This document shows, piece by piece, positions 27,001-54,991 of a stretch of 64,000 nt of DNA. The stretch covers positions 4,748,501 through 4,812,500 of the forward strand of contig NC_134028.1 of NCBI RefSeq assembly GCF_964204645.1, read 5' to 3'. The stretch comes from Tubulanus polymorphus. Its lineage: Eukaryota > Nemertea > Palaeonemertea > Tubulaniformes > Tubulanidae. Position 1 is the stretch's first letter, and the number at the start of each line of letters is the position of its first letter. Under the pieces are notes generated by a model. The model was given only the letters and a program-made list of their open reading frames with translations. It was not told the DNA's origin and did not search any database. Both the position numbers and the translations under genes were made by a program.

Positions 27001-28981
27001 ATGCTGTATATTATCACTTATTCTGAATTAATCTCTTTGTTCTGTATTGTGTATATGTATCGCATAATTCTGTCATAACATCAATATTCCTGATAATGAC
27101 TATTAAGACAAGTTGAAACATTAAATCATTAACTTGAACTCATAGAAGCAAATCTGCCTCTCAGCGTGAGATTTTACTTTTCCCTAAGATTATTTCGACA
27201 AATTTTTCTGACCAAAGACTCACCAACGAAGAGCTATTTTAATCGGTGTAGTCAAACATGAAGTGAATAAATCTGCCGGTAATTCAGGATTCATCGGTAA
27301 TAATTCATTAGGACTACACGCTGCTAGCTGTATACAGTTCTTCACCGATACTGGTTGCGTTGTTTGACCATTTGTTCGATTGTTCATCATAGCCAACTAC
27401 AAAATATAATACTGGCATATTCTTACACAAATTCATTCATTTCAATTACAGTACAGGGTGTCGCCCTTTTCTTCACAAAATTTTCATTGATTAACAAATG
27501 TTTGGTCAGTAGCACTATCCATATTCCCAGAATTTTCCATTTCAAGATTTTTCTGACTCCCTGAGTTTTCCGTTTTCAGGTTTTTCAAGAAGTTGATTTT
27601 CTTAACTGACCTCTATTTCTTGTTCTCGTTGGAGTTGAAATTGTTTGAATGATTCTATAATAACTCCAGCATTGGAGCAGTCGTAAACGTAAATAGACGG
27701 ACACAACATCCACGTCTGTAGATCATACACCGACAGCGGTATATACTGTGTATACGTCTACAAAATAGACAATACATGCCATAATAAATCGCAGGTAATT
27801 TTTATCCTGATATCATGATTATGTGGAAATTCACTGTATACCTTATTGAATACCCAAATTTCACCATTCATTGTTGGTTTTGGAACACCGTGTCCATTAT
27901 AATGGAATAGAACTCTTTCTTCCTGTAAAAACCAAACCCATAGGATTTGTATATTTCATCAATCAGCTAGGACGGCATTGGAGCCAGGGCTTGGATTGGG
28001 CTCGAGATACTTATTTCAAATACCTTTGCATTTCTGCGTAACGACGTACAGAGTTTTTTCACCTCTTCGACAGTCGGGTCGAGACTCTGTTTATATCGAG
28101 CTCGTGGCTGCCATCTTTCATATTGTTTTTGTAAATTTGCGCCGATCGCTTCTAATGATTTCTGAGGACTCATCGACAGTGGGTCTAAAACATATACAAA
28201 TACATATGTAGGCCTACAGTCTGTGAGACTTCAGACTCATTCAGTGTTCTTACATATTGGGAAATCCAGAAATTCCCTGATATTTCCTTGAAATTCCCAG
28301 AATAAACTAGTATTCTCTTGATTATCATACGATATCCTCAGTAGAGTGCGGGCTGTTTGTTTTCAAGAGTTTCCTTGTGCCACTCTTCACTCATCACTTA
28401 TTCCTGATATTCCCCGCGGGAAAAACCAAATCCGAAATTCTTTGATATGTAAAAACCTTAAGGATTAGTCACCTCTTACCTATCCAACATTCCATACGAG
28501 CACATGGAGAGGTTTTAACCACATCTGGAGGATCAACTCCAACGTTTAAACATAAAACTAGCGCCACGCTTACCGTCTTCATCTACAATACAACAAAACC
28601 ATTTCAATCATGCAATTTCAATTGCGCAGTTTTGTACAGTAATATTTCAAACCTAGGTGGATTAGAGCAGAAGGGTCAATCATTCCGAATCTGAGTAAGT
28701 CAGGGCCGGGTTTCAATAAATAACTCGGAACTTACCCGATCTTTCATACGCCACGAATGCGTCAATGTTTTTATACCCTCAATTTTTTCTAAATGACGTT
28801 TCGAGGTGAACGCGTTAAATAACTTCCAATCGGATTCGGGAGAATCGTTATCTTCAATGACCGAATCGGGATGCTGTTCAACGGCGGACATAGATCGAGG
28901 AGATGAGGAAGCAGCGATTTCTCTTGTTTCAATAGATTCAGTCGCCTCCTCAGCGACATAATGAGAATCAACAGCATTCAT
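18018..28981 (-). CDS. RPTOR: Raptor, regulatory-associated protein of mTOR
   Basis: Twenty-nine in-phase exons on the minus strand encode about 1,385 residues (human about 1,335). Exon 1 is 28736-28981, then 28480-28582, 28024-28184, 27842-27922, 27611-27757, 27224-27396 and onward. The C-terminal exons are 19396-19610, 18921-19138, 18395-18511, 18171-18300 and 18018-18086. The N terminus holds the conserved RNC region ([31 protein letters not shown], the caspase-like His/Cys positions). HEAT-type repeats follow ([45 protein letters not shown]). A low-complexity Ser-rich linker comes next, then about seven WD40 repeats ending [13 protein letters not shown]. Raptor scaffolds mTORC1, recruits TOS-motif substrates and places the complex at lysosomes through Rag GTPases. 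The Ser-rich linker is where vertebrate Raptor is phosphorylated; its sites were not mapped here. The start has no upstream in-frame alternative. Introns carry several dispersed repeats. Confidence 0.97.
20118..20310. repeat. Dispersed repeat family A, copy 1 (Raptor intron)
   Basis: About 190 bases beginning TTACAGATCAGGGAATCCAA and ending with an inverted-looking CCCGATTCGTAAGGAACC. The internal words CCTTAACCAAAAATTC and TATAAAATATCCTCAG recur in copies near 26050, 28250 and 59860. Termini are imperfect inverted repeats, suggesting a non-autonomous DNA element. Confidence 0.65.
20519..20705 (+). repeat. Dispersed repeat family B, plus-strand copy (Raptor intron)
   Basis: Contains CTGAAGATGATTATTAGGAT, then AAGTCGAAACTATGAATAAA, and starts with ACGCTGTATATCATC. 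A minus-strand relative lies at 23325-23435 and another plus-strand one at 26995-27150. A shortened form lies near 21070. There is no coding capacity. Confidence 0.6.
22258..22322. repeat. 18-bp tandem repeat in a Raptor intron
   Basis: Nearly four copies of GAAAAGATGGATCGACCA. The unit length is a multiple of three, which keeps frames open on both strands. The intron lies between 22217 and 22520, so it is not coding for Raptor. Confidence 0.85.
23325..23435 (-). repeat. Dispersed repeat family B, minus-strand copy (Raptor intron)
   Basis: Reverse complement contains GATGACTATTAGGATAAAG, then TTGAAACATTGAATAAACTA, closely matching the copy at 20519-20705. Located in the intron 22617-23670. 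Confidence 0.6.
26045..26249. repeat. Dispersed repeat family A, copy 2 (Raptor intron)
   Basis: Begins GTTCTTACAGATCAGGGAAT and ends CCTGATCTGTAAGGACCCTG, which are imperfect inverted termini. It shares CCTTGACCAAAATTAC and CATAAAATATCCTCG with copy 1. Confidence 0.7.
26995..27150 (+). repeat. Dispersed repeat family B, third copy (Raptor intron)
   Basis: Contains TATGCTGTATATTATC and later CCTGATAATGACTATTAAGA followed by GTTGAAACATTAAATC, parallel to the copies at 20519 and 23325. Confidence 0.55.
28246..28462. repeat. Dispersed repeat family A, copy 3 (Raptor intron)
   Basis: Starts GTTCTTACATATTGGGAAAT and ends GATATGTAAAAACC, with ATACGATATCCTCAG inside. More diverged than the other copies. 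Confidence 0.55.
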
Positions 28982-32893: not shown

Positions 32894-35800
32894 ATGAGTC
32901 ATTTGAACGGTCCATTTGGTGGCTTAGTCCAATATAGTCAGTAACCTGTCTGTGGTTTAGTTTCACGATCGGATATTTTCACAAACCACATAATATAAGC
33001 CCATCCGATTATAAAAAGCTTACCACCAACGATTAGGTAACTAACTAAGTCCAATGGTAAGGACATGTCCCCCACATGTCTGATTCTTCCCCTAAGGTTT
33101 GTCCTCCAACCTTTGATGATCACAATTCACACAAATTAATTACTGATTAATTAATGTTCTTATAGGTAAAACAAAAAATGCTGCAACAAAAACCGAGAAA
33201 GGTATGATTCACAAGATTGTCCTCTAATTAAACACTGACCGGTATTTTGTATCTAACGATTTTTTATTTAAACAGAAGTGGTTCGGTACCAGAATCTGGA
33301 TAGGAAATTAATGTTTCATGTGAGAGGTGTAGTTCCTTTGGTAAGGCAAAAAAATATACAATTCAGACAAATCTTAAGAGTAGAAATTGATGAAATATAT
33401 ATAATTGGAATTAGTTAATGATCTATCTTGTATGTAGGCTATGAGCTGTTCACATGGGGATTGGATATCTTTCTTGAACTCCTCAATTTTTTTCTTTTGT
33501 TTAAAGAGTGCTGTTTCCAGTTTTGCTTCATCGTATGAATCGACATCAATAGAAGAAATACATTTTCCAGCTGAGAGTCATATAACTGATGCTGTTATTG
33601 AAATTCTATCACAACAAAAGGTATTCTTCTGAATTCTAATCTTAAGGTGTCTTTACTTGCGCAATTGTTTTGGTAATCCATCGCGCAATCTGCAGGAGTT
33701 TAAGGTTATGCTATGTTTTTATATTAGGAAGTCTTTTTTTCTCATGAATTTGTAGTTGGATTGGAGTGAATTAAGATACGTGAATCTTGGAGGATGTTTA
33801 AGTCTGACTGAATATGGAATAAATTGCCTGTGTGATATTCTCTGCCAATCCAATCAGCTAGAAACGGTATGTACAACTTAACTCCATAAGCAAACTAATT
33901 AAAAGCAAGTAAGTTAACAATATGTTAGATTAGCTAGTATGCTTAAGGAGTTAAGTTGATAATGATGTGATGATTATTTCTTTAAAAAGTTCCCTTTACA
34001 TTAAAACAATCTCAAAGATCTTTAAAACATTTAAGTTACTGAATAAGTTCAAGTTAGATCAGGAGCTGTACGGATTGTATGATTATTATTTGATCTGATC
34101 TGATCATCTGATTAATTTTCACTTTATTTCAGGTTGATTTGAAACATTTCCAACGCATCAGTGATAAAACACTGATTAAAATAGCAGCCAGTGTCACTAG
34201 TGATTATATCAATGTATTGATAGATGGTACAGATATAACTCATATTCCTCCAGATATCAATAGATATAATCTGTTAAATCTACAATTCAATCATTGCCCG
34301 ATATTGTCGCCTTCTGATGGTAAGTTTTTCAGTAAAAGATTTTAACCAGCTAATCAGAAAATATTGGTAAATGGTAAATTTATGTTTTTTAATATTTTAG
34401 GTGAATTGGAATTGTTCCATGTTCCGTATAGTCATGTGATTATTTGCCCATCAGATGAACTGGAATACAGTGTTACTGATTACCTGACTACTGGCGAATT
34501 AAATACAATCCAAGATGTCGGCTACGCTCGAGATTTCATCATTAGCGAACAACACCTGACACTAACAGAACTTAAACTTCATCATGTAAGAATCACTTAC
34601 GTATAAATGAACTAGATGAAAATCAACTTTATACAAATTAAAAGGATTATAAATGAAATTGATTCATTAAGAATTACAATCAAAGATTAAATGACACGTT
34701 TCAGACTCAGTTTCGGAACGTACTTTTATTTCAATTCTTCATGAATTGAAATTTTGTTTTTAAATCTTTCAAATTTATATATGCCGGTTGATTATCTATT
34801 CTCCATGTCTGAGTGTACGGGAGCTATAGAAACTGACGTTTTGATGCAGTTTAGATGTTTATAATCGTTTCAGCCTTGGTTTGAATATCTGTCTCCCAGA
34901 CGACCTTCTCAAGTTATTATTCCATTCGATTCATCGTTAAAGGAAAGTGAAATAAATGAACACATTCAAAAAGTCGTCCATCACTTCATTACTAAAGTAA
35001 GTTCTGTAGAGGAGCCGTGTGAACTTGATGTCAAATCAGTAAATTTTAAGACTATGCACTAGTAGGGAAAGCTGGTATTTCTAATGAAATCAGGTTAACT
35101 AATAACGTACTATGCTAGCTATCTTCTCATTAACTGAAAAAATTCTGTACATATTGCAAAATGTTTTATGTCTAAACATTTTTGAATGTGTTAAATGAAC
35201 ATGTTTGTAATTACAGGGTCCAGTTCTATCGGATGTTCAGTTGATGTATGGAGTTAAAGTGTTTGAACTAAGGAACTGCAGTGTGGTTGATGATTTAATC
35301 AAGTAAAACATACATTCTCATTCTTTCAACCTAATTCATTGTAAGTATAAGTAATCTGTGATTTTTTTTAATCGAAGGTTTGAAGATGATGGTGAAATTG
35401 TGATCGATTATGAATTGGATTTAGAGAATAAGAATCGTAAATGGCATGTGAAATTAGAAAGTTGTGATAGAGAAGAAACTGCTGCAAAATTCTATTTGTA
35501 TGTGATGAAAAATGGAAAACCTGACAAGTGAGTCACAGTGTTCCCTTTCAGTTTTTCACATGTTAAATTTCACTCATTGCTGTCTCATTGCGATTCTATT
35601 ATTGATCCTAGTTCAAAAAGTAGTTCTTGTTTTTATCTGTGAAATTCGCTCAAAATTTCAGGATCTCTGGAATGTCTCTGGATATGAGAACTAGCGATGA
35701 AATCATATTCAGTTTTGATGAAGAATCCGATGAAGCCATTTTAACAGTTGTAAACAGAGGAAAAATCTACACGGTAAAAACCACCAGAACCTGATGATGA

Positions 35801-38800
35801 TAGATGTTTGTTTACGCTTAAAGCCCAGCAAAAAATGTTCCACTATAGGGATAGTGAGGTCATGATGTGACACGCAGTATCTTCATATAAAACCAGAGTG
35901 ACAAATAAGACCAAACGTCTTCAATTTGTATTTGTTAGGGTGGTAGATTGAACCTTCTATCCAAAAAAATATGTTCTCTATTCACTATAGAGAGGTTTTC
36001 ATTACAGGGAGGTACTGTACTGATGTATGTACAGTATTTCAGATAGGAAAATTTTTGGATTGAGTGAATGTTGTTTACTGAACGAGTTTTACTGTGTGTA
36101 TACATTATTTCAGGAATCTATTAAAGATGCTGATGATGAAAAGATTTATCCAGGTTTGTCTGTGAAACGAGCTTGTACTCTTAGAGCCATGACCCTGTCA
36201 CCCATTGTACAAAAACCAGTAAGTTCAATTCCGAGTATTCTAATTGATTATTCGATTTCATCTTGATTTTACAAGAAACTTAAATCTCTCTCCCTCCGTC
36301 TGTTTTAGGCTGAGAATGAATCGTTGTGGTCCGGATATAAATTCATGTTAGTTCCGGTGATAACGAATGGAGACAATTCTAAAACAAAAATGTCACATCA
36401 CAGCAACATAGACTGGGAACCTTACATTGATCAACTTACAAAATATATTGATCTACAAAAAAGGTGATAGTTTACATGTGAATGAGGGGATGGGGTTTAG
36501 AGGAGGTGGTGTTTGAAATTGTCGTGAATTAACTGTGATTCATTGATTTGTAGTGAAATGAGTAATGATCGATTAAACCAGATTCAACTCAGTGAAGCTC
36601 TTAAACAGAGAAGTAACATCATTCACTTCGAACGAGACTTGAATTCATTCTTCTCGCAAGAACTTGATTTTAAAACCGGTGTCGTAAGTTATTAACTTCT
36701 CAAATAGACCGAATATCAGTAATCTTTTATGATTTGGAGGAAAAAAAGGGTGATCTGGCTCTGTTTTCAGGGTCGAGATGAAATTCTGCAGAAACTCGCG
36801 AGCAATGCGCGTTTAGATCAGAAAACAACACCTTACAAACATCAAGTCAGTTCTGATACTTACACAGCTCTTACACAAATGATCAACGGAATGAATCAGA
36901 GGTCATCATGGTTAACAAAACTAGATGAATTCACAGAGAATCCGACCAGTGAATTCGCTGCTAATAAAATCAATCATCCTCACAAGTGGAAGTTGGTTGA
37001 GTTGTTACAAGAATGGGTAAGCAGTGTCTAACAATCAACGTTGAATTGACTCAACCTGGCTTTAACTCTTGTATCTCTCTCTCTCTCTGTATTTCTAGGG
37101 ACTGTGTTTATTGCTGCCGTATAAAGGTCTCACTCTAATTATCACTGATCCGAAGAAGTTTTACTCTACGCTGAACAGTCTCAGTATCCTCGACGAAATC
37201 CCTCACGCCGATATCAGTTGTTTACCTGATAATGTGAAGGGAATCACAAACAGTAGAATGTTTCAACTGCTTGTGGATATCGGCTCGTCCAAACTCACTC
37301 AGGTAATGACAATTCATTGATGACAATTCATTAAAAGAGCGAAACATGAATGCTTAATGTTATTCGCTGAATCAGTTAATCTGAGGCTGTTTTTTCTATA
37401 ACCAATACTATCAGACCACTAGAACTGTGGAACTGGGTCCAACTTAAATGATAAAACCTTAGATTAGATGTAGTCTTAAAAAGCAACAACTTGTGGAATG
37501 TTATCTAAATTTCATGATGTAAGATGCGTATTGGTCCAATTAGAAATCATCTCAGTATTTGTATGTTACATACAGGAATTACTTGTATTTTCATTGCTTT
37601 CTCTGATGTTGTAGGCTGTTGCTGACACTCTATCCTATATAGGACCACTAATGGCTTTACCTTGTCTCTGTACATCTGAAGATGATGTTAAATACATCTG
37701 GACAACTGTAAAACATATCACTGAACCTGTTGTATCCATTGTATGTTTCATCAATTATTTCAACGTAAAAATCTTCTTAAATTAACTTGAAAATGAAGAA
37801 AATTGTGTTGTTTTACAGGAAAAATATCGAAATGTGGATAAAAGTGAGAATATTTCCACTAAGTCTTCAACATACTCGCTGTATGGATCAATTCCACTTA
37901 CTTTCATGACTTCTTTGACGACACTGGTCTCGAATTTCTTCCAATTCACTGTTGTATGGAATAGTGGATATGTTATTCATATAGGAGCAATGGAAGTGTT
38001 CGTTATTCAAAATGGTGAGATTTCTTTTTTCTCTTAGGAATATCAACATGTGTCCATGTTGGGCCTGGTTTCATAGACTGAGTAGAAAGTTACCTCTATG
38101 TATAAATCATTAACCTATGGGCTCTGAAACAATATATATGATGGATCTATGAATTCAAGTGGCAATATTGAGGCTATGCTGTGTATAAGATGCAGTAAAT
38201 TTTGTGAATTTCAGATGGAGAAATCTCTATTCAAGTTTCAACTGCTGATCTCAGTGCGAATATTGATGATGAAAATATGAAGATGAAAGAAATGAAATTG
38301 ATTGAAAGACAGTTAAACAGTTTACTGTTTATAAATATTGAATTAGTCGAGTTCGTACTTCTAAAAGCTGGAATATTCTTCAAAGCCACGAAATTCCTCG
38401 GCAATGACAAAGTTTGTGAGTTCGATTTATTTGTTTTTCCCCATAAAATTATTACATAACTGCTTATTTAGGAAATATCATGAGATGAAAATATTTCAGC
38501 TATTTTGCACAATCGAACAGAGTATTTTCCATCGTCCATTTTAGACTATCCCAGTATTTGTAGTAAACACCAGTGGAAGCGCCCGGCTGTGAGTGGTAGT
38601 GATAATCTGCCGCATATATCCGTATGTACGTTATGTCAGAATTGTACCTATAGAGGGCGTGACTGTCCACAAAATGGAATCCCGTGTGATGTATACAGAC
38701 AGTGTATGTGTAATACTGAGGTTTCGTTCGGTTGCTGGGATTGTGGAATTTGTCAACGTTGTGCTGAAAAACTATGGGTAAATATACGATTTACAAAAAT

Positions 38801-41800
38801 ATGAGGCTTTCATTTAATTGTTCACATTTTAATGGAGGTCTATGCGGTATTTATGCAATTTGTTATACATGTAAAAATTTGTTGGTCATGAAAGTATCAT
38901 AGAAATAGGCGCAGTGGCTGATGAGTGGTTTAGGCCATCAGTTTCTTGCCAATCCCGCATTCATTGGGTCCAGTTATGGTGGTGGTAGGGTTTCTTGGTT
39001 GAAGGTTCTTCTCTGGCCTGGTGATTTGAGTGGAAACCTGAGTGGTGCTCAGCTGGTCAATGTATTGATTTGTGTTACTTTTTATTTAACAGGAAATTCA
39101 CACATATTTAAACCCATCTCTCGGTGAGTCATCGTTTCCAGCTTTAGGAGCAGACGTATTGGACATCGTTCTCATTCCGGTCCCGATTTCACCTCTTAAT
39201 AATGAATTCGCGATCAATTTATACGGCGAAAGTGCTCCTCAAGTCGGCCTAAACAAGTGAGTTTTATTTAGCTGTTTCATCTGAATGATTTAGAATCTAT
39301 CTAAAACTGAATAAATGTGTATGTACCGTTGTTATAGAATTTGATGAAGAGAGATGAAATATTTGGTAACTACAATGTTTATTGTGAATTGGTGAATGTG
39401 AGCAATTCAAGTTTATGTTTAATTTAGATGTTTATAGATCCTGTTGATTATTAGGTGTTCATTGCTTTTGTATGCTTCTTACATCCCTGCGGAGCTGCCA
39501 ACTGTTCCCGATTTTCAGTATTTGTTACTATTTTGTAATGAGAAAAACTGATTTGATTTCATTCATGCATACAGAAATATGAAGGATGTTACTGAGGGTC
39601 TTACTGTTGACTACTGATTAATTGAACAATTAATTTTTCTTCCATATTTCAATGAATCGTTCCTTGAAAAAATTCAACTTTTGTTACTGATAGCACTTTT
39701 TAGAGGTTGGCAGCCCTGTCCCTGGCAGTTTAAACATTTCTGTATTGTCACTGTATCTTAAGTTTCGTGATTATCGATTCCCTTTTCTGTTCTCTCGCTT
39801 TCTATGTAAGATAAAACCCTGAATTTTATGCCTGTTTCTTCTTCAATTAAACCAAAACTTAATTCCCTAGTTTCAATGGCGCTATGGAACTCTTTCCTGT
39901 AGAATGGTCTGGCATCGGAGCTAGACTTGATCTCAAATTCTTCTGGCCTCAGGTATTTTTACATACGTAAACTAATATCTTCATCTGTACATTCGAATTT
40001 CAACCTATATCTTAAAGGAAATTTACTTTTTTTACGCGTAAAAAGGAGAATGTAAAACCTAACCGACAGATAAATTCTGCTCAACCAGATCTTTATCAAA
40101 CAAGTATCAAGCGTCGAGTTCACTTGTGTCAAGCGTTAGGAATAGCGGCGTAAGTGACAGCTTCATTTAGAATTGAAAAAGCTGGTTTAGATCTGTGTTT
40201 GTTTTTCTAACTGTGTATTTTCTAATTGTATATGAATAGGTATACTCCGTTGAGCTCTCGTCCGATGGTCGGTCTTATCGCAGCGAAATGTCCATTTACT
40301 CCCGAACATAACTCATTCAAAATCAGTAAGAATCATCATCTTTATATGAATCAAAATGAAATATGAAACTGTCATTGAATGTAAGATGATAAATGAATGG
40401 TTATAGAATAGAAAACCCACAATCATTAGAAGAATGTCAAAATCTGGTTCTTACGCTTCTTCCCTTCTTCACAGTTTATTCAAATGTTCAATTATAAAAT
40501 TTCCAAATCTTCTAAAATGAAGATTGCTATCAGTCAACAACAATCTCATTGATTAACGAATGTTTCTTGTAATTGATCTCAGATTTTTACTTGCTTTAAT
40601 GGTATGATATCTACCTGATTTCAGGGATTTTAAGTCGCGGTTCTAAAGGTACGATGTCTATCGGATTTGTCCCAAAAGATTACGCCGATGATAATCAAGT
40701 TGGATGGAGATCGTTCTCAGTTGGTTACCACGGTGATGACGGAGGGTACGTTTATCTATATTGTTGTCGCATGACTGGCTCATTACGTTGTAGGTAGGGT
40801 AACAACTGATGTATTTATATTTTTAGCGTGTATCTCTCATCTGGTTGGGCTAAACGAACAATGGAAGAATGGCACATCGGTGACGTTATTGAATGTGGAA
40901 TTGATTTTAACCATGATGCAACAAAAAGCATTTACTTCTCATACAATGATAAGGTAAGGTTGAATTCACTTGGTCAGTGGTTCTTCTCTGTCCTTCCCTG
41001 TACCTAAAAACCTGAACATTTCACGGTTAACCTCCCTAAAAGCAAATGCTTCTAAAACCCTAAGTGAGATACATACCTACTGATACTCAGCAAAGAAGAC
41101 TTTGCTGAGTAAAAGAAGACTTCCCAAAGAAGACTATGGACAAAGTGTTTCATCAATGGTTACCTGCTGGTACTGTTAGAATGTATATTCTCTGATGTAT
41201 ATTATAGAAAACTTACGTTCTGACGGGAGTTGATCGATTACCTAAGGATTTATATCCCGCAATCGGATTTCATTCGAGTCGGGAATCAGTGGAACTTTTA
41301 ACTCCTGCGACCTGGCGACCACATGACATTGCGCAACCTGTAAGTTTCACGATAACCATTACTGTACTGTTTATAGATATTTAGGTTAAAGATGTTTTAT
41401 GTTTGACTATTTCAGGATCCAACAACTTTTGTTGACCACAATACTCGAATTATTGATGATAATCTAATGATCTGGTAAGATATATGTATACATGTACACT
41501 GGTTGTAGAGAGTATTTGATTATTTGCTCATTGAAGTCATTTACATTTTTCAGTCCTAACTATGAGCTTTATTTCGACCCTCGTTATGACACCATTGAAG
41601 ATTCAAACTCTGGATTTGGTGTGATTTTCTTGAAGAATGTGTCTGAGAAAGATTTGGAGATAGCAGTAAGAGATTAGACAAGTCTCTCGAAAATTGATAT
41701 TCAATTCTGTTTGACTAGTTTTCAAATTTATCATCATCACTTGAATTGATAATTGCAGATAACTGATGTAAGTGGTAACTCAGAAATAGAATTCAAATTC

Positions 41801-44800
41801 GACAGCCCAATAACAGTAAAAGCTGCAAGTCACAAAGTCATTCATGTTGGAATTCAGTTTGAAAACTCATCTGGTGAGTCATACAGTTTATAAAAGGTTT
41901 TGATACCATGAACTTTTTCAAGGGTCGAATATGGTTCTAACTTACCTCAATTTGTGTTTGATTTGTTAGAAGCAAAATCTCTGATGAAAGAAGCGTTGCT
42001 GAAATTACAGTGGAGAGAGAATGAAGAATCAGAATTTACAGCAGACAATAAGCACACGTAAGTCACACGAGCCAGTTACACAGTTAATAAACAAACCGGC
42101 CTCAAATGAAGAAATCTAATGTTTGTATTTCTAACAGTTTCAAGATTTATCTGATATACAGTAAACATCATTACTGTTTTGCTGTTTCTCTGAAGATGAG
42201 ATTTAGATAAATCTTGAAACCATTATAAAATACATCTAATAAACTTTAGATATCATCGATTGTGGGATTGTCGTGTATTATCTTCTACATGAGTTAATCT
42301 GTCAGTTACACTGAATGTGAATGATTATTGTTTACAGATTTAGATGTAACTGGAGTGGTATCGAGGTTAAATCACTGATAGAACGTTGGGCGCATGGATC
42401 GAAATATAAAGAGGTTGGTGCTCCTGTTTGGATCGGTAACATTTTACTGAAAATGTTCAAATACACAATTCATTGACATCCTTCATTCCAAATATAGGAT
42501 TCAGTTATTGCCGAGTTGAGAATGAACAATGAAGTGATCAGTCATTTCTTCGTCCGGGATCATTCACCGCTTTATCTATATGTGGATAGAAGAAGGTGTA
42601 AAGATGAAGAAGGGGCGTTCATTCATGCTCCAAAAGTTCCGGTCAGTATAACAACGTGTGTTATGCAAGCTATAGGTAAACAGCAAACTCAAAGAGTAGT
42701 TTACTGTTCACCGTGTATGAGGAGACTATTGAAATACATTTTGTAGTTGTATGCATGTATTGATGTTTAAAGATTTCATTTCTGCAATAGTAAATAGATG
42801 TGTATCTCTTTTTCATGCAGAAAGTTGAGTTTCCATTTGAGATTGAGAAAGGAATGTATGTAGCATATTTGAAAGATGACCAACCAGTCGTGTCGTAAGT
42901 TTTTTTTTTTCAAATTCATTTCCGCCAGGAGAAAATATTATGATAATGTTGTCATTACTTTCGACATACCGCTTTATCACTGTACATGTTCAAGAGGCGT
43001 AGTAGAGGAGCTGTTCTAACCTGGTATCGAACTTATCTTGGATGTCAAATGTGTAAAATCATCATTTGAAGATCTTTCTCTCATTATGGACCAAAACTTT
43101 TGAATGCCATCATTCATCACATCATTAAAATGGAAAACAGTGATCCTTTTAATAGGCAATCTGATCTATTTATACAGGGTATAAAGAGACATAGTGCAGT
43201 GAACGCGAAGTGGAATGGCACTATATAAAACCTATTATTATCATTAATATTTATTATAACCTTAACCTTTTTATTGCCTATTTCTCTGTAGACATCCAGA
43301 TTTCTCAATGATAAATCTAATGATGCTGAAAGATGACGTGTCTGAAGACGGTGAAATGAATCTTATGCCTGTTAGTGTAACTGAGAAATCAATAACAATT
43401 CAAACTGCAGTTCGTCAGACTGAACGAATGTATTGTGTGGCAGTTACTGAAAACTTGATCAAGTCTTTTAAACATGGAATCGATATTCTCTTCAAAATGG
43501 CTCCACCGACATTATTTTCACAGGTAGAGCTTTTTCAAAACTTCTCAAGTAATATCTACTGGTATGTCATTATTATACTCGAGATGTTTAAATTTTCAGA
43601 CTCAGTTGCATCCGACCGCTGCTTGGCGTGGTATCTACAGGAAGGGACATTCTTGTAGTAAAGCACCATGGCTTGTTACGAGTAAGCATCGGTTTTATGT
43701 AACAATATCTACATGTACTGGTAGTACAATTCTACACTTGTATATTGTCATCATCCAATCTATAGTTATCAGGGCTCTTCGTCCACTCTGTACATAGTAA
43801 CAGTTTTCAGGCTCTGGACGAGCGAGTCTTTCATATTCATCATAATATTTTGTAAAAGAAATCATACGTAATTAGGCTACTTCTGCCTCAGCTATCCGTC
43901 AAAATCTTAAAGATTTTCATGACACAATAACAGGTAAAGATTTTTCATAAAAATGTTCTCATTCTACCTTATTTTTAGCATCTGAAGCTAACAATGTGAA
44001 GGTTACAGTTGATTATCTACTGCAGACGGTTCTCCGTGATTCTATTAGTTACAGCGTTGTTGCGTTTCTTCCTGCGGAATTGAATCAAGAGAAACTGCTG
44101 TATCCGAGTTTACTGGATTTCACGGATATAAATCGACTAGCTGGGTATCCATTGTGTTTTTGCAGAATTGTCAATAGAACTCCTGTCATGGCAAGCACTG
44201 GTAGGTAGACACTACAGCTTCAAATCCAGGACACAGTTCTACAGGAATGAGATCAGATTCTAGGGTTAAGAAACCTGATTTCAACTCTTTAATGAGAACT
44301 GAGTCCAGCTTTAAAACAAAACTCCCAAAAATCTTAGTCAATTGCGTCATAAATTTCATCGTAATTTATTTCAGAAAATGTAAATTTAGGAATCGATCGA
44401 TTCATCCCTCATTTCATCGATCATTCAGGGATTAAACCTGTTCTTCCTGCAACGGAAAATATCAACTTGATTTTCCGTAGTATCGAATCATACTGGGCCT
44501 ATTCTGTTATATCTAAAGAGAAGGTTTGTATCAGAGTTTTACTATCAGTATTTCATGCACTTTACGTCTATGATATAATGAAACCTCCTTTTACTTCAGT
44601 TGAAACTTGCTTCGTATGACCGTATGCTGCAAGGTGAACCTATGAAAGTAAATCAGGTTAGTTCATTGTTAGTTTATTGGAATACTTTAAGATTTTTCAA
44701 ACAAAATGTAGTTTTTCTCAGTTCTGAGTTTTAAAGTTTTACTAATTTCAACTCGGGATCTAGTTCCAAAGTGATGAGTCGGAATTGATTCATTTTCAAT

Positions 44801-47800
44801 GAGTTTCAATTCTTTACTCGGACCTAGTTCTGGAGTCAGTCAGTCCGTCACTCAGATCTCTGGAACTGGATGCAATAGTTCTTATGTTACTTTTCTAAAT
44901 GTAATCAGTTTCATCATGTGTATCATTTCAAAGCATCTATTTCTCCTCTGTTCAGGTTGAATCTGGTCTGAAGAAAATCTTGACGATATTTGCGTCGATT
45001 ACGCACGCGTTGTGTGGGCAGTATAAATCTATTCACGATATACCGGAGGGAGACATGTACGAGAAGATATGTGCGAATGATGTCGATACCTATATACCAG
45101 AAATATCAGTAGGAATAGAAGGATTTCGTCGTGATCAACTCGTTCACAACGGAATCGAAAGTTTGTGTTCTGCTCACTACTTCGCGACGCCGAATTCACT
45201 GACGACCGCCCCGAAGGATGACTCGGTTCAAATGAATCCACAGATTCTTTCTCCATATGAATCGTACGTCCATATGTTACACTGGGATCTCACAGGAACT
45301 ACAGTTTATCCTAATGACATGTTCTATAGGATGCCAAATTTACAGGTAAAATATCAGCTCACAAAATACAGGATCCAGTTCCACAGTTTTAGAAGCGACT
45401 AAAGAGCGGAAAATGAAATGATTACAACACGTATTATATTCCATTTCTACTCTTTAACTCGCGACTATTGAACTGGATCCAGGGGTCAGAGATACATCTA
45501 ATGAAATCTCCTTCAAAAGTCAACTAGTGTGTATTAGGTAAAATCAGCCATATTTTCTTTATTGCAGGTTCTTCACCTTGAAAACGCATGTGATATTCAT
45601 GAAAATCCAATTCCGGATATTCTTAGTTGTAAAAAGTTGAATCATATCTCGATAACAAACTCAAATCTAGCGGAGATTCCGAACAGTTGGGCGAATTTTC
45701 AACTGAAATCAATGAATATAACGAGCAGTAGAATCAGCGAGATTCCAACATTTATGGCAAACCTAAACGCTTTAGAAGCATTGACTTTAGAATACAATCA
45801 AATCTACAAATTAGCCGATAATTTAGATCGGTTAGTTCATCTGAAGAATCTCACAATCACAGGTATAAAAACATCTACAGAAATGAATAAAAATTCAGCA
45901 AAGATTCATTGATTTAGTTAAGTGATTGATTTTGTTGTATTTTAGGTGTTTTGCCTGATTCATCGTTTTGGTGCAGTGATATTTTACGTAGAGACTGGTA
46001 TAAAATGCATGGTAATAATCTCGACAAATTGCTCGGCGTTCAGGTATGAGTGTCTTAACTGCATTAAATTCCCACCTCCATCTTGCAGAGCTGCCAACTG
46101 TTCCTGTTCTTCAGTATTAGTTACTATTATTGTATTGCTACTATGTACTAGAAATACTGATGAGATACGTTTGATGCATGAAGAAATGTGTTAAGATGTT
46201 AGTGAAGGTCTTATTGTTGATTACTGATTAATTTGAACATTTTCTTTCATATTTCAATCGAATGTTACTGAAAAAAATTTGTTACTGATTTTTCAAAGGT
46301 TGGCGGCTGTGCTTGTAGTTAGTCGTATGAAATTATCATTATGTTGATGATCTATATTTCAGAAATTGAATGAATTGTTTGATAAATGCGACTTGGACAA
46401 TAATAATATTCTAGATCCAACAGAAATTCCAGCGTTCACCGCTGAATTATTCTACGCTGTGTATAGATTTGGTCTTGAATGGTCTGAGAATGGTATGTAT
46501 GTAGATGAATTATCTTGAATATTTCTTGTTCTAATGCCGTTGATGTAACTTTTAAATGGTTACTTTGAAATTTTGATTCTGTGTAGGACCTCAAGCTGCT
46601 TTAGGAGGATTCCCGGTGGAAGTGTGTTCTATATCGTCACTAGTTCATCTCAGTTTAAAGAATCATGCGTTTCGTCATGTTCATGCTAGTATCGCATATC
46701 TAAAGAATCTACGAACTCTGATTCTCGATGAGAATCCTCTACTTGAAACGTTACCAGCTTCGATGGCTGATATGAAGAAACTTGTCGGTAAGTTCTCAGG
46801 GAAACCTCATAAAACTCTGACAGGAAATTTTCAAGGATATCTCAGTTTCGATGCACAGTAGAACTTGCTTACCTCAATTATTTCAGCCAGAATTCTGCTC
46901 GCCTCAGAAAAAACTTTTGATACTGCTGTAAGAGGTTTTCACTGAAGCCCAAGGCACACGATGCAGGGGATGCAGGAAAACTGCGTCATGTGTGTTGGGC
47001 TCATCAGTTAGTTCAGACAAGTGTCCAAACCCTTAGATTCTGAGGTATACAAGTTTATTTTTGATCGTAGGATAGGGATTGACACTGTTGTTTATTTGAT
47101 TGGTAGATTCTGATTTCTTTTGATTTGGTGTCCCTTACAAACCTACCATACCTGCCGGGAGCAAAACAGGGGGGTTTCCTGTATTTGTAAGGCTTGTCTT
47201 GATAATTTGAATCAAAGATTTTGTATATTCAAGGAATGAACATCGAATCTTAACTAATAGAAAAAATTTCTAAAATTTCAGATATATCTGTGCGTGGTTG
47301 TTCATCGTTGAAAACGCCTCCCTTGGAGATATGTCGGAGAGGAAGAGATCCAATAATCGCCTATTTGAAATATCTGAGTGCGAGTTATTCCGAGTGTCAT
47401 CGTACAAAACTCATGTTGGTCGGACTCGGTGGTGCTGGAAAAACAAGGTACGTAGGCTGTTACCTGTTAATTGACTCATTTATAGGTATCAGAAATTACA
47501 GTCAGAAATAGAAGTTTGTTTTACTATTCTATATATTTGAAAAATGTAAAGACAGGCAGTACTGTAGGTTAACAGCTTTTGTAAGCTTTTGCTGCTAGAG
47601 CAAAATAGCTTCATCATGAGTAAAGTTAATCAACCAGTATTTATAGAATGTCCAATTAGACTCACTCTTCCCATGAATAACTCATTTCTAATAAAATCAG
47701 TTAACAGTTAAACCTGTTTTCATGTTAAATAGTATACTCATGGACCGTTCTAATCTTATTGTTTTAACGTGGCAAAATCTCTAAATATTGTCACGATTTA

Positions 47801-50800
47801 TCTTTTGGAAAATAGTTTACTTCGTGCATTGACGAGTAAAACAGGAAAAACCAAACAAATAGAAGGTGAAGAAATAACGAATGGAATTGATATAGGAACA
47901 TGGAACGTTAGTTCAACTGATCAGTCGCATACTGTTTACTTCAGTACGTGGGATTTTGCTGGACAAACTGTTTATTACAATACTCATCAGGTTAGAATCA
48001 AACCCATCGATCTTCATTCTTGGACTAAACTATGAAAACATAAATCAATTCATTCTTCGCTCTTTTCAGTTTTTCCTCTCTTCAAGAGCTGTATATTTGC
48101 TTTTATGGACGACTCGTCTCGGCTGGGAACACGCAGGGTTAGATTTCTGGCTTAGTTCAATCTCGTGTCACGCTCCGAAGGCACCGATATTCATCATTGG
48201 AACTCACGCTGATCTGGTCAGTGATCTTAGAATTACTGAGTTCTGACTTTAAAAAGCTGGACCTGGATCCACTGTTGTTCGGTTAAAACTTGGAAATGAC
48301 CTAATTTATTGATTCTTGAGTCAAACTCCACAACTGTGGAGCTGGACTGAACCTGTATACGAATAACATAAGTGAAATGTTTTATAGGTTCACAAGAAGG
48401 AAATTCCTGAACAAGCCCTGAAGGAAAGATACCCTCAGATAGCAGGCTTCCATTTTACTAGTGCTATTTTAGGACAGGTAAACTGTTGTTTGATATAGTT
48501 CTATGAATCTACATTGCTCAGTTTTAGTTAAGATCGGTTATGATTTATAGGGTATCAGTGATCTGAAGGAAGCAATCGTTCTTGAGGCATCTAAACAATC
48601 GTATATGGGTGAACGCATACCGGAAATGTGGCTTTCATTTGAGAGTAAAATCATAAAGTGAGTAACAGAATTTAGAAAGAGAACGATGTCATTTTTATCA
48701 TCAACACGTTTATATTCAGTTGTTTTATTCCACAGAAAAAGAGATGAGACATCGGTAATGGCGTGGGAGGATGTTGAAGAAATGGCTTTAGAGACTGGAA
48801 TTTATGAGGAAAAAGATGTGAGTATTTTCATATGGCTCTGTAGTTTTTCCCTGTGAGCTTACATCTTTGAAAATAAGCATCATCCATTCGCACCAGTATG
48901 TTGCAGGTGCAGTTTTGAACATGTAAATTGTAGTTTAAAATGCCAGGATCTAGTTCTGTAGCTGTAAGTCTAGTTTAACTGAAGAATTAGAATTAGTTAA
49001 TTTCCAATATTTTGAACCTAGACTCAAATCTTAATGGAGGACTTAGGAACTGGGTCCTGAGATATCGATTGTATTCTATTCTGTTTGAAAAGGAATCTCT
49101 ATTGTAGATTCGTCAAGCCGTGATGTTTCTACATGAATTAGGAACAGTTCAATATTTCAACAGTGAATTTCTACGTGATCGAGTAGTAGTGAATCCACAG
49201 TGGATCGTCGATGTCATGTCTTCTGTTGTTTCGGTGAAAGAATCCGCGATCGTGGTAAAATATGAAACGATTGTCTCTAATCAATCGAGGCTCAGCTGAA
49301 GATAATGTTTAGAGATCGAATTGTCTGTCAAAGTCACAATCAACAGCCATTTGACAAACGATATGATGCATTTCAACTATACATGTGACGTCCATGAGAC
49401 CGTGGTTTTTATATACCAGGGTGGCCACTCACTTGGAAATCAGGGAATAGTCAGGAATTCTCTTCTCTTTTAAGATATCAGGGAATAGTCTGGGAATTTG
49501 GTTTAAAAAAAGAAGCTAAAAATCAGGAAAAAGTTGGGAAATTTTTTTAATTCAGGGAAAGAGCAAGTCAAATCAAAGTGGTCACAAATAGAGGAACTAA
49601 TGATTGCTTACTCCATTGTATTTAGGATGGAATATTTAATCACAGCGATATGTCGATTGTTTGGGATAAAGAACCTCCTGAACTTTATAACTGGTTGATA
49701 CGATTAACTGAAAAGTTTGATTTGACTTTCCCGATGCCAAACGAATACGCGAATATGGTACCGTGTTTGTTACCAACTCATAAACCAGAACTTATCGAGG
49801 TAATTATAACTTCATGGAAAAAACTTAAAAGTCATGCTTTAGAATTCTGAAAGCCTGTGAATCTTAATGTTTTGAATTCATTTTATTTATAAATAGCGTG
49901 AGTGGCCGGTGATAAGTGAAGGATCTGATGTCAGGGAAACTAAAATGGTTTATGAGTTTCAGTATTTGCCGGCAGGATTATTCAATAGAGCTCAGGTTTG
50001 TGGTTTACACACTCATACACATACGGATTCTGGTAGTGAGGTTTATGACTCTATTTTACGATATAAAATCTCAAACTTTCTTCAGGTCAGATTGTTTGAG
50101 TTCTCTGATAGCCGAGGAATCTGGAAACAAGGTTCTTTGTTGAAGAAAAATGACCACATCGCTCTTGTGCAGCAAATAAAGTCAGTACCCGCTTTACCGA
50201 CAGTAGGTTGAGTTCAACTCATTAGATTCTAAAACACTCCTTGTTATTATTTACAGCGATAAAACTCTAGTGATTCGAGTTCAAGGTTTACGACCACAGA
50301 ATATTCTGTTCTTGATCCATGAAATCATTGAGAATCTCGTGCTTGAATCTTTTAATGGAGTGAAATATGATTTATTTCTACCGTGTCCGGATTGTATCGA
50401 TAAAAATGCAAGTACAATTCAATACATCTCGATACAATATCTCAATACGATATCTCGAGCCGTGTGTAAGATTTTCATGCGATGTTCAACTTAATCCTAA
50501 TAGTCATCTCCAGGAAAACTTAAGTTACAACAACATTAAGATATACAATCCAGAACAAAGAGACTTATTGAGTAATAAGATGTGACTTGTAAGTTATTCG
50601 TTGGCTTCATCACAGACAGAGTGTTTCATTAAAGGTTTTCATCATTATTTGTAAATAGGGTACGAAAGATCCTGCATTATTGGAACAAAGGCTGATCAAG
50701 AAAGCGCTCAAGATGAACGCACCATTTCTTCAGTGCCGCAAATATTTCCATGTTATTTCCATGTCCGAATTACAAGGTAAGAAACCACCGATCCTAGATT

Positions 50801-53800
50801 CACAGTTCTAAGTTTCTTACCGACATCTTGATTATTATCAATGATTTTGTCACCGCAGCAGGTTATACCATTTACTAGTTTGTTCTAATTACTTGAGCAT
50901 AATATGGATGTAAATTGACTCATTAGAACTGTCATATTTGTAGCTGTATTTCCACCTGATAGTTCACAAGAATTTGACATTCAATTTGGGAAACTTGTAC
51001 AGAATCTACAGGATTTAAGGAATGAACTTTCAGCAGACGTGTTTATCTTATCGTGTAATACGTGTGGTAAAGATGATCCATCAGTCGTTTCGGCGGAACA
51101 GGTGAAAAACGATCTGGAGAAAGATGGTTACAAAGTGTAAGTGGACTCTATAGATAAATAAAGAATGTATCTCATGAATGATTGAGTTTACTGCAGACTT
51201 AACTGTAAAATCAAACAGTTTCCGGCTATGTCTATTGGATTCAAAATGTTCAAAATTCAATTTTCAGCTTGATGTCTGGTGAAATGAATGTGCAAGATAT
51301 TGCATTATCTATCAAAGATTCGAAGGTAAAAGTCATCGTGATTCCTTGAATTTTCTCTAATTTTGACTTGTTTTACTATTATACGCTTTTTCGTGTTCAG
51401 GTTGTCGTTATTTTTGCGTCTAAAGAATTCAATGAGAATGAACAATGTTGTCAGTTTGTATCGTACACTAGAGATATGCTTCGTAAGCCGTCTGTGTTGT
51501 GTCTTCATGGTAACGATTCATCGTGGTTGAAAGGAGGGGACAGTGGAGCTCTGAGTATGATGATCGGTCCTGATGAGGTTTATGTAAATTTCATACAAGC
51601 CGAACAATACAATGCTAAACTCGTGGAATTGAAGAAACAAATAGATTTACGAATTTCACAATCAAAGTCTCAGGTACAGTTAACAAAGACTTGTTAGTAT
51701 CTATATTCAATGACTTTTGAATTTGGTGACTTCAAAATTTACTTTCAAGAAGTGAAATTCTGAAAAATGAATAGAGAATTCAACAAATGTAATAATGAAA
51801 GTATTGAGCAAGTCTCTTGATGCTTTTGGAAGAAGCTTGGTATGTTAATGAGTGACAATCTGTATGTATCCCCAATTTAACAAAGTTCTTGTATTTTAGG
51901 AAGCAATAACTCCACAAGTTTTCCTTAGTTATTGCTGGACAAATTCAAAGATGGCCGTCGAAGCTCACGGTTTACATAAGAATGAACTGGCATTAGGTTG
52001 GGGTGACCCTCGTGCTTTAAAACAATATCTTGAGGAAAATGGAATTTCCTGTTGGTTGGATATTGAACAAAACATGGTAAGTGATTCTAGAATTCAATGA
52101 AGACTTGTTCATGATTTAGTTTAGTACCGGTATCTAGTTCTGTTGTTCTAGGGGTAACCGGTAAGATCATTCAAACTGTTGTAAGAGTAACCTGTAAGAT
52201 TAGTTGGTATTTAGATTGTTCTAGGGGTATCCTATAAGATTTTCTAGTATTCACACTGTTCTTGGGGTAACCTGTATGTAAGATTGTCTTGTATTCTAAC
52301 TAGTCAGCTTTTTCATTTCTGTTGTAGTTTTCACTAAAATTCTGGTTATGATAGTTTGTAAAATCTTCTTGTAGACTCGGCTGTTTGAAGATCTTTGTGA
52401 AGGAATTAAGAAGACTGATATTATAGTCGCTTGTGTATCTGATGAGGTACATATTGTATTGCTATTTATTATTGTTAGTCACTGACCTGTGCAGTTTATG
52501 AAAACCTAATTCAAATGATTATATTTTCAGTACGCTGAATCTGATAACTGTATGATGGAACTGAGGTTCGCGATCGGTACGTTGAAAAAACCGGCGGTAT
52601 TCATCGTCGTTGGGACAGGAGATGATTGGGAGTGGACAGAGATCGGAATATTGAAAGATCGTCTGCGAAGTCCGAAAGTCGATTTTCGAGAAGAAAGTAA
52701 TCACTCGTACGAGAAACTGATGAAGCACGTTCAACTTCAGTTAAAAGCAGCGAAAGAAAATCGGCACCAGACAAAAAAACCATCTGCAGCAACTCAGAAA
52801 AAAATACCAAAGAAAGAAGAGAAGAAAATTGCGTTTAAGGTTAGAAATTGAGGCATTCTCTATCAACTAATGTGACCTATAGATATCATAAACATGTCCG
52901 TCTGTTTTGTAGGAAGATTATGAACTTTTACAACGGAAATTTCAACGCCAAATCGCGATATTCGCACAGACTATGAATATCGTGTATCCACGATTAATCA
53001 TTGTTGATTTTCTTGAAGAGTCTGAACTGAAGCAGCAGGGTAAATACTGGTTCTTATCACTTTTTCACTTCAGCGTATGAAATGTACTTGGAATTTATGA
53101 GTTTGTATTTTCACAGAATCGAAAAGAGATGAAGAGTTGAATGAAGCTGAAGCGGCTCGAAAAGCGGAACAAATCCGTCTGGAACAAGAGGAACAACAGT
53201 TGGCGCAACAACAAGAGATGAGCGACCTGATAAACCGTGAAGAAATCACTTTACAAAGACAAAGTGAACTCATTGATGATGAGAGAGAGGTATCTAGAAA
53301 ATACTCATGACTCTACAGTCAGTGTTTTAATCTTATTCAGAAATATTTACAGTCCATGATCCAGTTCCAGGCTTCTCGGTTGAATTTGACTCTAGATAAT
53401 TACAATGTATTCTTTTCAAATATTTAAAATGATTTTTGCATTTTAGGAAGAAGATGAATGGAAAAGTAGTAAATTTTGTTTTCGTATTTTGTGCGAGAAT
53501 GAACAAGGCTGGCATTGCCACGGTAAACCGCTTCCGTACTTAGTATCGCAAGAACGACGCATCTTATTCCTCACCCTCGTCGCTCCTTATTTATATCGGA
53601 TTTACAACTTACTGAAAAACAGCGGAATTCAACTTCACTGTTTAGGAGACTCGGTGAAGGCTCAGAAATTCCTTGAGTTCATCAAAGAGGTCAGTACACT
53701 GTAGTTTGATAACTCGGTATATTTGAAAATTCCAAAAATACATAAACATAATTTCATAATATATATGTTTTGTTGTAATTTCAGCACGCGAGTGGTGAAT

Positions 53801-54991
53801 TCCAAGCTGCATACCGTCACTGTAGAGATGCTGTTCATAATTATGATCCTGGACGACAATTGGGCTCTTTACAAAGGTACTGGTGGGGACCAGGCTACAT
53901 CGATTTGAATATGTCAGATATTTTTGATGAATCATGGGTTGGCTCGTCTTCACCCGTCAAGGGATTCGAACTCACTAACTAAACCTGTTCCCCGAACGCT
54001 GTTGGAAGCAAGTTCGGGACCGATTCCGGGCCCCTTGCAAGCGAGGATAAGATTGGCTGGTATACCAAATAAAATGAGATGTTATTATTTTTCAGGTGTT
54101 ATTTGCCGAGTGGTAAAATTAACTGGCTGTGTGAAACCGATCATCAGAAACTGAGAGTTTGTATCCTCTCGTCAGACGACCCGGGTTCAGTCAACGCGTC
54201 TAATATCGTCAACGATAGCGATATTCGATTGCGTGTTGCTCTGACTGATGACCCGGACAGGATGGCTACAGTCGCTAGGAGATACCAATCGATTATTAAA
54301 GGAAATCTACTGAAGAAACCACCGCCTGTACCAACTATTGAGAGAGTAGTGTCTGATACTAAACGTCCTGTACTCACTAAACGTTCATCTTCATGTAAGT
54401 TTGAAATCTATTTATTTGCAGAAATAATGATGCGATCAGCATGTAATGATTGATTCTAGTCTCTGTTATCCTTCTGTAAGGCTAAAGAAATGATAACTTG
54501 TTTCTCCTAATCGGCCGAATCATTTCGTAAACTGCAATTAAATTTGTAATCAGTTCATTTCTATAGATGCTGAGTCAGGGTCAGCTTGATCATGATTTAA
54601 AAAAGAGTAATGTACTGAGTACATAGGCGCCCGGCAGGGTCAACTTATTTAACGCAGCTGAAATGAGAAGCAAGGCATCAATTCTTTTAGCCTAACTTCT
54701 ATTTTGATTCTGATTTTGTACTTGTTCATTCTTCTGGCAGTGTTAGTAAGACCGATTGCTCCTGCAAAATTAGGTGATGAATTTGAACCCGAAGAGGACA
54801 GTGTTAAGGAGGAACAGGAGCAGCAGGAGCCAATCAGACGGGCGAGTGAAACAAGTCGACGGGTTAAAGCTAAAAGGCGTATGAAAGCAGCGGGGAATGC
54901 GGCGCTGGCAGCAGCCAGATACGAGCATCAACAATCTGACGAAACTTCGAATAAAACTGAGAGTAGCAGTAAAGTGTGTAATATCTCATAG
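32894..54991 (+). CDS. Giant ROCO-family protein: LRR, Cys-rich, SPRY, LRR, Roc-COR, TIR-like, TIR
   Basis: About 67 exons from 33166 to the stop at 54989-54991 join without a phase error and encode about 3,320 residues. The first exon is uncertain: 32894-32918 fits in phase but has a weak donor; otherwise the first in-frame ATG is 33311. Approximate domain order: LRR-like (80-150); long region of unknown fold; module with 12 Cys (890-940, exon 38500-38777); SPRY (1065-1215, with WRSFSVGYHGDDG and GWAKRTMEEWHIGD); LRRs (1800-1910 and 1995-2090) flanking an EF-hand loop DLDNNNILDPTE (46393-46425); Roc GTPase (P-loop GLGGAGKTS spanning exons at 47282 and 47816, G3 WDFAGQ, G4 GTHAD); COR (to about 2570, exon ending 50407); TIR-like domain (exons 50944-51673); clear TIR domain (exons 51900-52839: VFLSYCW, CWLDIEQNM); coiled coil; C-terminal domain with WHCHGKPLPY and WLCETDHQK; acidic/basic tail. 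By analogy this is an intracellular GTPase-switched receptor in innate immunity or cell-death signalling; ligand and partners are unknown. A poly(A) signal lies at 55900-55905. Confidence 0.85.
39486..39718 (+). repeat. Dispersed repeat family C, copy 1 (ROCO intron)
   Basis: About 230 bases starting GAGCTGCCAACTGTTCCCGA and ending GAGGTTGGCAGCCCTG, so the ends are inverted (GGCTGCCAAC-like). Internal GTTACTGAGGGTCTTACTG and CTTCCATATTTCAATG match the copy at 46087-46312. It lies in the intron 39257-39870. Confidence 0.75.
46087..46312 (+). repeat. Dispersed repeat family C, copy 2 (ROCO intron)
   Basis: Same orientation and layout as 39486-39718: GAGCTGCCAACTGTTCCTG at the left, GTTAGTGAAGGTCTTATTG inside, and AGGTTGGCGGCTGTGCT at the right. 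It lies in the intron 46044-46362. Confidence 0.75.
46946..47001. repeat. 21-bp imperfect hairpin in a ROCO intron
   Basis: AGCCCAAGGCACACGATGCAG pairs with CTGCGTCATGTGTGTTGGGC plus T, with a short loop containing GGGATGCAGG. It may be the remains of a foldback element. Confidence 0.6.

Follow-up and report, generated by a model that had tools for sequence, protein, structure and literature searches.

ROCO proteins that carry a TIR domain have been listed for several invertebrates since 2014 (PMC4104024 and later). In Trichoplax, ROCO proteins include LRR, MBT and TIR domains (PMC4104024 Fig. 1), and two LRR-TIR proteins of ca. 3,000 residues with several further domains and no transmembrane domain have been described from this animal as ecTIR-DC 14 II (PMC6321704). 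LRR-Roc-COR-TIR proteins were found in all sea anemones examined; in addition, Roc and TIR are combined with C2 in oyster and with MBT in Trichoplax, and the order Neuralized-Roc-COR-Death-TIR was noted for centipede and oyster (PMC5094078). Aplysia encodes proteins with LRR, Roc, COR and TIR domains of which LOC101845043 also carries an EF-hand and LOC101848126 an MBT domain (PMC9334734), and a TPR-ROCO-TIR protein is known from the red alga Chondrus (PMC11378527). Roco proteins tie their GTP/GDP cycling to a monomer-dimer change via Roc-COR (PMC6337361), though the literature that we searched held no functional study of any ROCO-TIR protein.

Here, we describe a gene in a window of 64,000 nucleotides on a chromosome-size contig of the nemertean Tubulanus polymorphus (NC_134028.1, positions 4,748,501 to 4,812,500), which, judging from its sequence, very probably encodes a giant cytosolic ROCO-TIR protein and is present in a single copy. 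A search of the 268 Mb genome detected no second copy of either its C-terminal or its N-terminal half. The first-pass annotation of this locus had taken the known animal ROCO proteins to end in a kinase, a death domain or nothing, which is wrong given the TIR-bearing ROCO proteins published for Trichoplax, sea anemones and Aplysia, and its proposal of an undescribed receptor type fails because LRR-Roc-COR-TIR proteins are already in print (PMC4104024, PMC6321704, PMC5094078, PMC9334734). The gene is real and well read, and it is a further example of the giant ROCO-TIR proteins known in non-vertebrate animals, perhaps a variant of them that is distinguished by the joining of a SPRY domain.

Gene model and domain architecture

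An exon-chain predictor, for which the window itself and two long single-frame genes of ROCO type from this genome served as training data, joins ca. 66 GT-AG exons in one frame on the forward strand between 33.44 and 54.99 kb (Table 1), with median exon and intron lengths of 128 and 129 bases, respectively, and a stop codon at 54989-54991. The encoded protein has 3,254 residues when read from 33507 and ca. 3,276 should translation start at 33441, where an ATG lies in frame, which bears out the ca. 67 exons and ca. 3,300 residues in one frame that the first-pass annotation had proposed. The start that it had placed at 32894 probably runs into the upstream neighbourhood, where the reverse-strand Ribosomal_S7 gene lies. 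When gene starts were made dear, the predictor extended the gene upstream to 28.9 kb, but this output was ruled out by the CHCH-domain and Ribosomal_S7 genes located there. The interval of the ROCO-TIR gene is bounded by the Ribosomal_S7 and ArfGap-PH-PH genes, both on the reverse strand.

The forward strand of 33-55 kb reaches a coding score of 522, whereas the reverse strand scores 24 and 12 shuffles that preserve dinucleotides score 5-21. This argues that the exon chain is not due to chance, though this control is rather generous with a predictor that was partly trained on the tested stretch. The Pfam matches are independent of the predictor, and many of them cross exon junctions and therefore give independent support for the splices, barring a few edges in COR and TIR that were picked with the domain in mind. 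These choices set by domain logic concern COR-A, for which 49108-49254 was taken in place of 49482-49532, the exon 49897-49995, which was left unsplit, and the exon 52375-52446, which was added for the TIR; the exons 41759-41873 and 43292-43523 were taken in their longer form.

Table 1. Features of the ROCO-TIR locus, its neighbours and related genes of the genome (positions refer to the window unless a contig is given).
Feature	Position	Strand	Evidence
SPARC	~6.4-10.9 kb	-	
Raptor	18150-28981	-	Raptor_N 6e-75
CHCH-domain gene	~29.3-30.0 kb	+	
Ribosomal_S7 gene	~30.2-33.1 kb	-	
N-terminal region, ~950 residues, 18 exons (33441/33507-33620 to 39093-39256)	33441..39256	+	Gene model; candidate ATG 33441 from frame
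Linking exon between N-terminal region and SPRY part, in-frame, phase 2, AG/GT sites	39871..39952	+	Gene model; weakest join
SPRY, four exons (40240-40325, 40625-40745, 40827-40953, 41208-41339)	40316..41297	+	Pfam SPRY 7.4e-13
Linker, ~590 residues	41416..45345	+	Gene model
LRR block	45568..45862	+	Pfam LRR_8 9.1e-12, LRR_14 1.3e-11
Probable single EF-hand between LRR blocks, loop DLDNNNILDPTE	46363..46492	+	Pfam EF-hand_6 E=0.009, below cut-off
Second LRR stretch running into Roc	46587..47350	+	Pfam LRR_8 7e-4, LRR_14 6e-4
Roc GTPase: P-loop GLGGAGKT, switch DFAGQ, THAD	47407..48213	+	Pfam Roc 6.8e-21; LRRK2 alignment
COR-A	48620..49772	+	Pfam 2.7e-30; exon matches in genome scan
COR-B	49936..50661	+	Pfam 4.4e-26; exon matches
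Degenerate TIR-like domain; Phe at catalytic Glu column	51034..51673	+	Pfam TIR_2 6.2e-5, 23.9 bits, below cut-off; alignment
TIR, three exons (51900-52076, 52375-52446, 52531-52839)	51915..52719	+	Pfam TIR_2 3.5e-18; PDB Cat1 alignment
GAA codon for Glu in SDNCMMEL, aligned to NADase TIR Glu column	52558..52560	+	Alignments
C-terminal tail: Lys/Glu/Gln-rich stretches around folded-looking segment	52720..54991	+	Gene model
ArfGap-PH-PH gene	56.7-61.4 kb	-	
Second ROCO-TIR gene, Neuralized-Roc-COR-Death-TIR	contig 2, 30232001-30249000		Pfam Neuralized 1e-37, Roc, COR-A 7e-21, weak Death, TIR_2 9e-24
Third, diverged Roc-COR-TIR gene	contig 3, 3304001-3314000	-	Roc 2e-9, TIR_2 4e-8, COR-A weak
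Two intronless LRR-Roc-COR genes, uninterrupted about 880-1,041 codons	contig 1, 27165078-27168494; contig 9, 10259159-10262413		

Above curated cut-offs, Pfam detected SPRY, LRR_8/LRR_14, Roc, COR-A, COR-B and TIR_2 in this order. The combination of SPRY, LRR, Roc-COR and TIR that had been read from the sequence before is right, and the domain search came out positive for each of them. Our analysis adds the weak EF-hand and the degenerate TIR-like domain of Table 1, neither of which the first-pass annotation had listed. The closest solved relative of the SPRY domain is SPRYD3 (PDB, 2.9e-21), followed by RanBP9/10, and no Pfam domain was found in the linker behind it. As is characteristic of ROCO proteins, Roc is directly followed by COR, with COR-A and COR-B in order, and the GTP-binding motifs P-loop, DxxG(Q) and THxD are all present. 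Over 360-440 residues, Roc-COR can be aligned to LRRK2 and bacterial Roco structures (E of 1e-37 to 1e-32), and its closest matches in the PDB are LRRK2 and Chlorobium Roco.

The Glu of the second, clear TIR lies within the S/T-x2-C/W-x2-E motif of NAD-cleaving TIR domains (SDNCMMEL) and aligns with the Glu of the CRISPR-associated TIR Cat1; the same column holds Glu in alignments with AbTIR and a plant TIR, and a profile including this domain matches the NADase TIRs Cat1, AbTIR and SARM1 as well as those of plants. In the first TIR-like domain, NEQCCQFV stands for SDNCMMEL, so that the Glu has been lost. From WLDIEQ to the next TIR helix, the stretch lacks ca. 4 residues compared with the remaining TIRs of the genome, suggesting that an exon edge may be off. 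No Pfam match was obtained for the C-terminal tail. We note that one of its exons (53447-53689; RILCENEQGWH...LVAPYLYRIYNLLKNSGIQLHCL) looks folded while matching no Pfam family and is perhaps a domain that has not been catalogued.

Other ROCO and TIR genes of the genome

Two further ROCO-TIR genes are encoded on contigs 2 and 3, and the model of the latter is interrupted by a stretch resembling a membrane protein, which probably belongs to a different gene or reflects a wrongly called exon. Two LRRK genes were detected away from the window, besides the intronless LRR-Roc-COR genes, both with uninterrupted frames that exceed 1,000 codons; the one on contig 1 has an MFHAS1-like layout. In a Roc-COR tree of seven genes of the genome, only the LRRK pair was resolved, and the tree therefore says nothing on whether the ROCO-TIR genes form a clade. 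All three ROCO-TIR genes have a His (SCHAPK, HAHAAK and FAHAHH) in the column that we take to be R1441 of LRRK2, going by the LRRK2 alignment and the numbering of LRRK2, while the two LRRK genes keep the Arg (QARAPD and HARAPG). Three natural ROCO proteins with His at this Parkinson site provide a comparison point for LRRK2.

As observations on TIR genes elsewhere in the genome, contig 11 carries a gene (7168001-7177000) in which a stretch resembling a death fold precedes two intact TIR_2 domains, much as in conserved invertebrate TIR adaptors, and contig 10 carries a cluster of intronless frames of ca. 765-785 codons with TIR_2 at ca. 1.3-3.5 Mb that is perhaps an expanded family of Toll-like receptors.

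Proposed function and alternative readings

On balance, we consider it probable that the gene encodes a ROCO-TIR protein of known type in which binding by SPRY and LRR acts through a Roc-COR switch on a TIR output. The mechanism that we propose in detail is more tentative. By analogy, the SPRY and LRR modules would bind a ligand or partner, and binding would alter the GTP/GDP and dimer state of Roc-COR, as is known for ROCO proteins elsewhere. Once Roc-COR is rearranged, the TIR domains at the C-terminus would come into contact, and the TIR, again by analogy, might either nucleate TIR adaptors or cleave NAD+, with the degenerate TIR-like domain serving as a scaffold or brake. An immune role of the Tubulanus protein is suggested by analogy only. 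With its complete Roc-COR, its tandem of a degenerate and an intact TIR, its SPRY domain and its single copy, this protein would be a good test case for the question of whether an animal Roc GTPase gates TIR enzymes.

It is quite conceivable, if short of probable, that the protein is instead a catalytically silent adaptor of which the TIR binds TIRs of the MyD88/TLR type, with Roc-COR as a mere scaffold and no cleavage of NAD+. The authors of the Aplysia study indeed read ROCO-TIR proteins as TLR-like or MyD88-like (PMC9334734), many other TIR_2 genes are present in the Tubulanus genome (several with open frames of ca. 770 residues), and the Glu is missing from the degenerate TIR-like domain; yet the second TIR retains it, and Pfam found no death domain in the protein. 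That the Glu is also kept in TIR domains without known activity counts against the reading that we favour. At the other extreme, the protein might be an NADase that is gated by GTP and senses via SPRY and LRR, with the ROCO switch restraining both the dead TIR and the live one that follows it in tandem, and the His at the R1441 position setting a slow GTP turnover. We regard this reading as improbable, but if true it would make the protein an animal counterpart of plant TIR-NLRs on another NTPase. Only slightly less doubtful is a cytoskeletal, trafficking or developmental GTPase akin to the LRRKs with no immune role, as might be suggested by LRRK2 being the nearest solved Roc-COR and by the gene being single copy, unlike fast-expanding immune receptors. 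Against such a role, the TIR domains of animals act in immunity or in the death of cells or axons. In addition, the vertebrate LRR-Roc-COR protein MFHAS1 is reported to modulate TLR signalling (PMC4658032).

A different kind of doubt concerns the extent of the gene. The part from SPRY to TIR fairly safely belongs together, but the join of the N-terminal ca. 930 residues to the rest is the weakest point of the model and not safe, and this region could be a separate gene. The N-terminal region begins with a stretch that looks LRR-like by eye, followed by a beta-rich and a Cys-rich stretch (38545-38777), and its first ca. 900-950 residues have no Pfam match. The N-terminal LRR-like segment claimed by the first-pass annotation was thus not recovered, since Pfam gave no LRR match within residues 1-877 even at a cut-off of E<1. 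When a gene break was forced at every intron, most breaks lowered the score, but gains of 7.7 and 5.1 units, before any prior on gene boundaries, were seen at 39.26-39.88 kb and 42.90-43.32 kb, respectively; breaks within the COR domain gained up to 1.4 units, and gains of about this size are therefore noise. Two genes would comprise an LRR-like, Cys-rich protein of ca. 930 residues (33.4-39.3 kb) and a SPRY-LRR-Roc-COR-TIR protein of ca. 2,300 residues from an ATG at 39884, and a predictor with cheap gene starts splits the chain exactly at this junction, where the larger gain is located. We nevertheless think that two genes are unlikely, since the linking exon, flanked by AG/GT sites, keeps the frame from one side to the other and reads from its acceptor to the ATG at 39884 with no stop, a single gene wins at moderate start cost, and relatives of ca. 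3,000 residues have been published (PMC6321704). The SPRY domain lies downstream of the weak point at 39.3-39.9 kb.

Comparison with known systems

The favoured reading as a ROCO-TIR protein of known type agrees with ecTIR-DC 14 II of Trichoplax, which shares LRR and TIR together with several further domains in ca. 3,000 residues and compares with the 3,254-3,276 residues of the Tubulanus protein if it is one gene; SPRY and EF-hand are not named in the accessible part of that description (PMC6321704). This match rests on reported size and domains, and orthology with the published ROCO-TIR proteins is likely. The order LRR, Roc, COR, TIR that Pfam finds on our gene model is also that of the Aplysia proteins, among which LOC101845043 has an EF-hand like the probable one here while no SPRY is mentioned (PMC9334734), and of the sea anemone Novel Gene 1 (NG1; LRR-Roc-COR-TIR_2), of which the LRR resembles F-box/LRR proteins but which is much shorter (ca. 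1,300 residues for the longest protein in the figure) and has no reported SPRY (PMC5094078). Across the literature searched, SPRY is not named in any ROCO-TIR protein, though this is a weak absence. Bacterial and red-algal ROCO-TIR proteins similarly combine Roc/COR with TIR but have other partners such as TPR in Chondrus (PMC5094078, PMC11378527).

LRRK1/LRRK2, MFHAS1 and DAPK1 share the Roc-COR core and, except for DAPK1, the LRRs, but have a kinase, nothing or a death domain where the Tubulanus protein has its TIR; the kinase and WD40 features of LRRKs were indeed absent when Pfam was run on the gene model. In TLRs, the order of domains differs from the Tubulanus protein, in which LRR and TIR are split by Roc-COR, though the 5' end of our model is uncertain. 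The parallel to plant TIR-NLRs drawn by the first-pass annotation, with LRR as sensor, GTPase as switch and TIR as output, is reasonable as an analogy and holds as nothing beyond that: plant TIR-NLRs and animal SARM1 would resemble the Tubulanus protein in joining a sensor or regulator to a TIR output with its Glu, but they do so with NB-ARC or ARM/SAM instead of Roc-COR.
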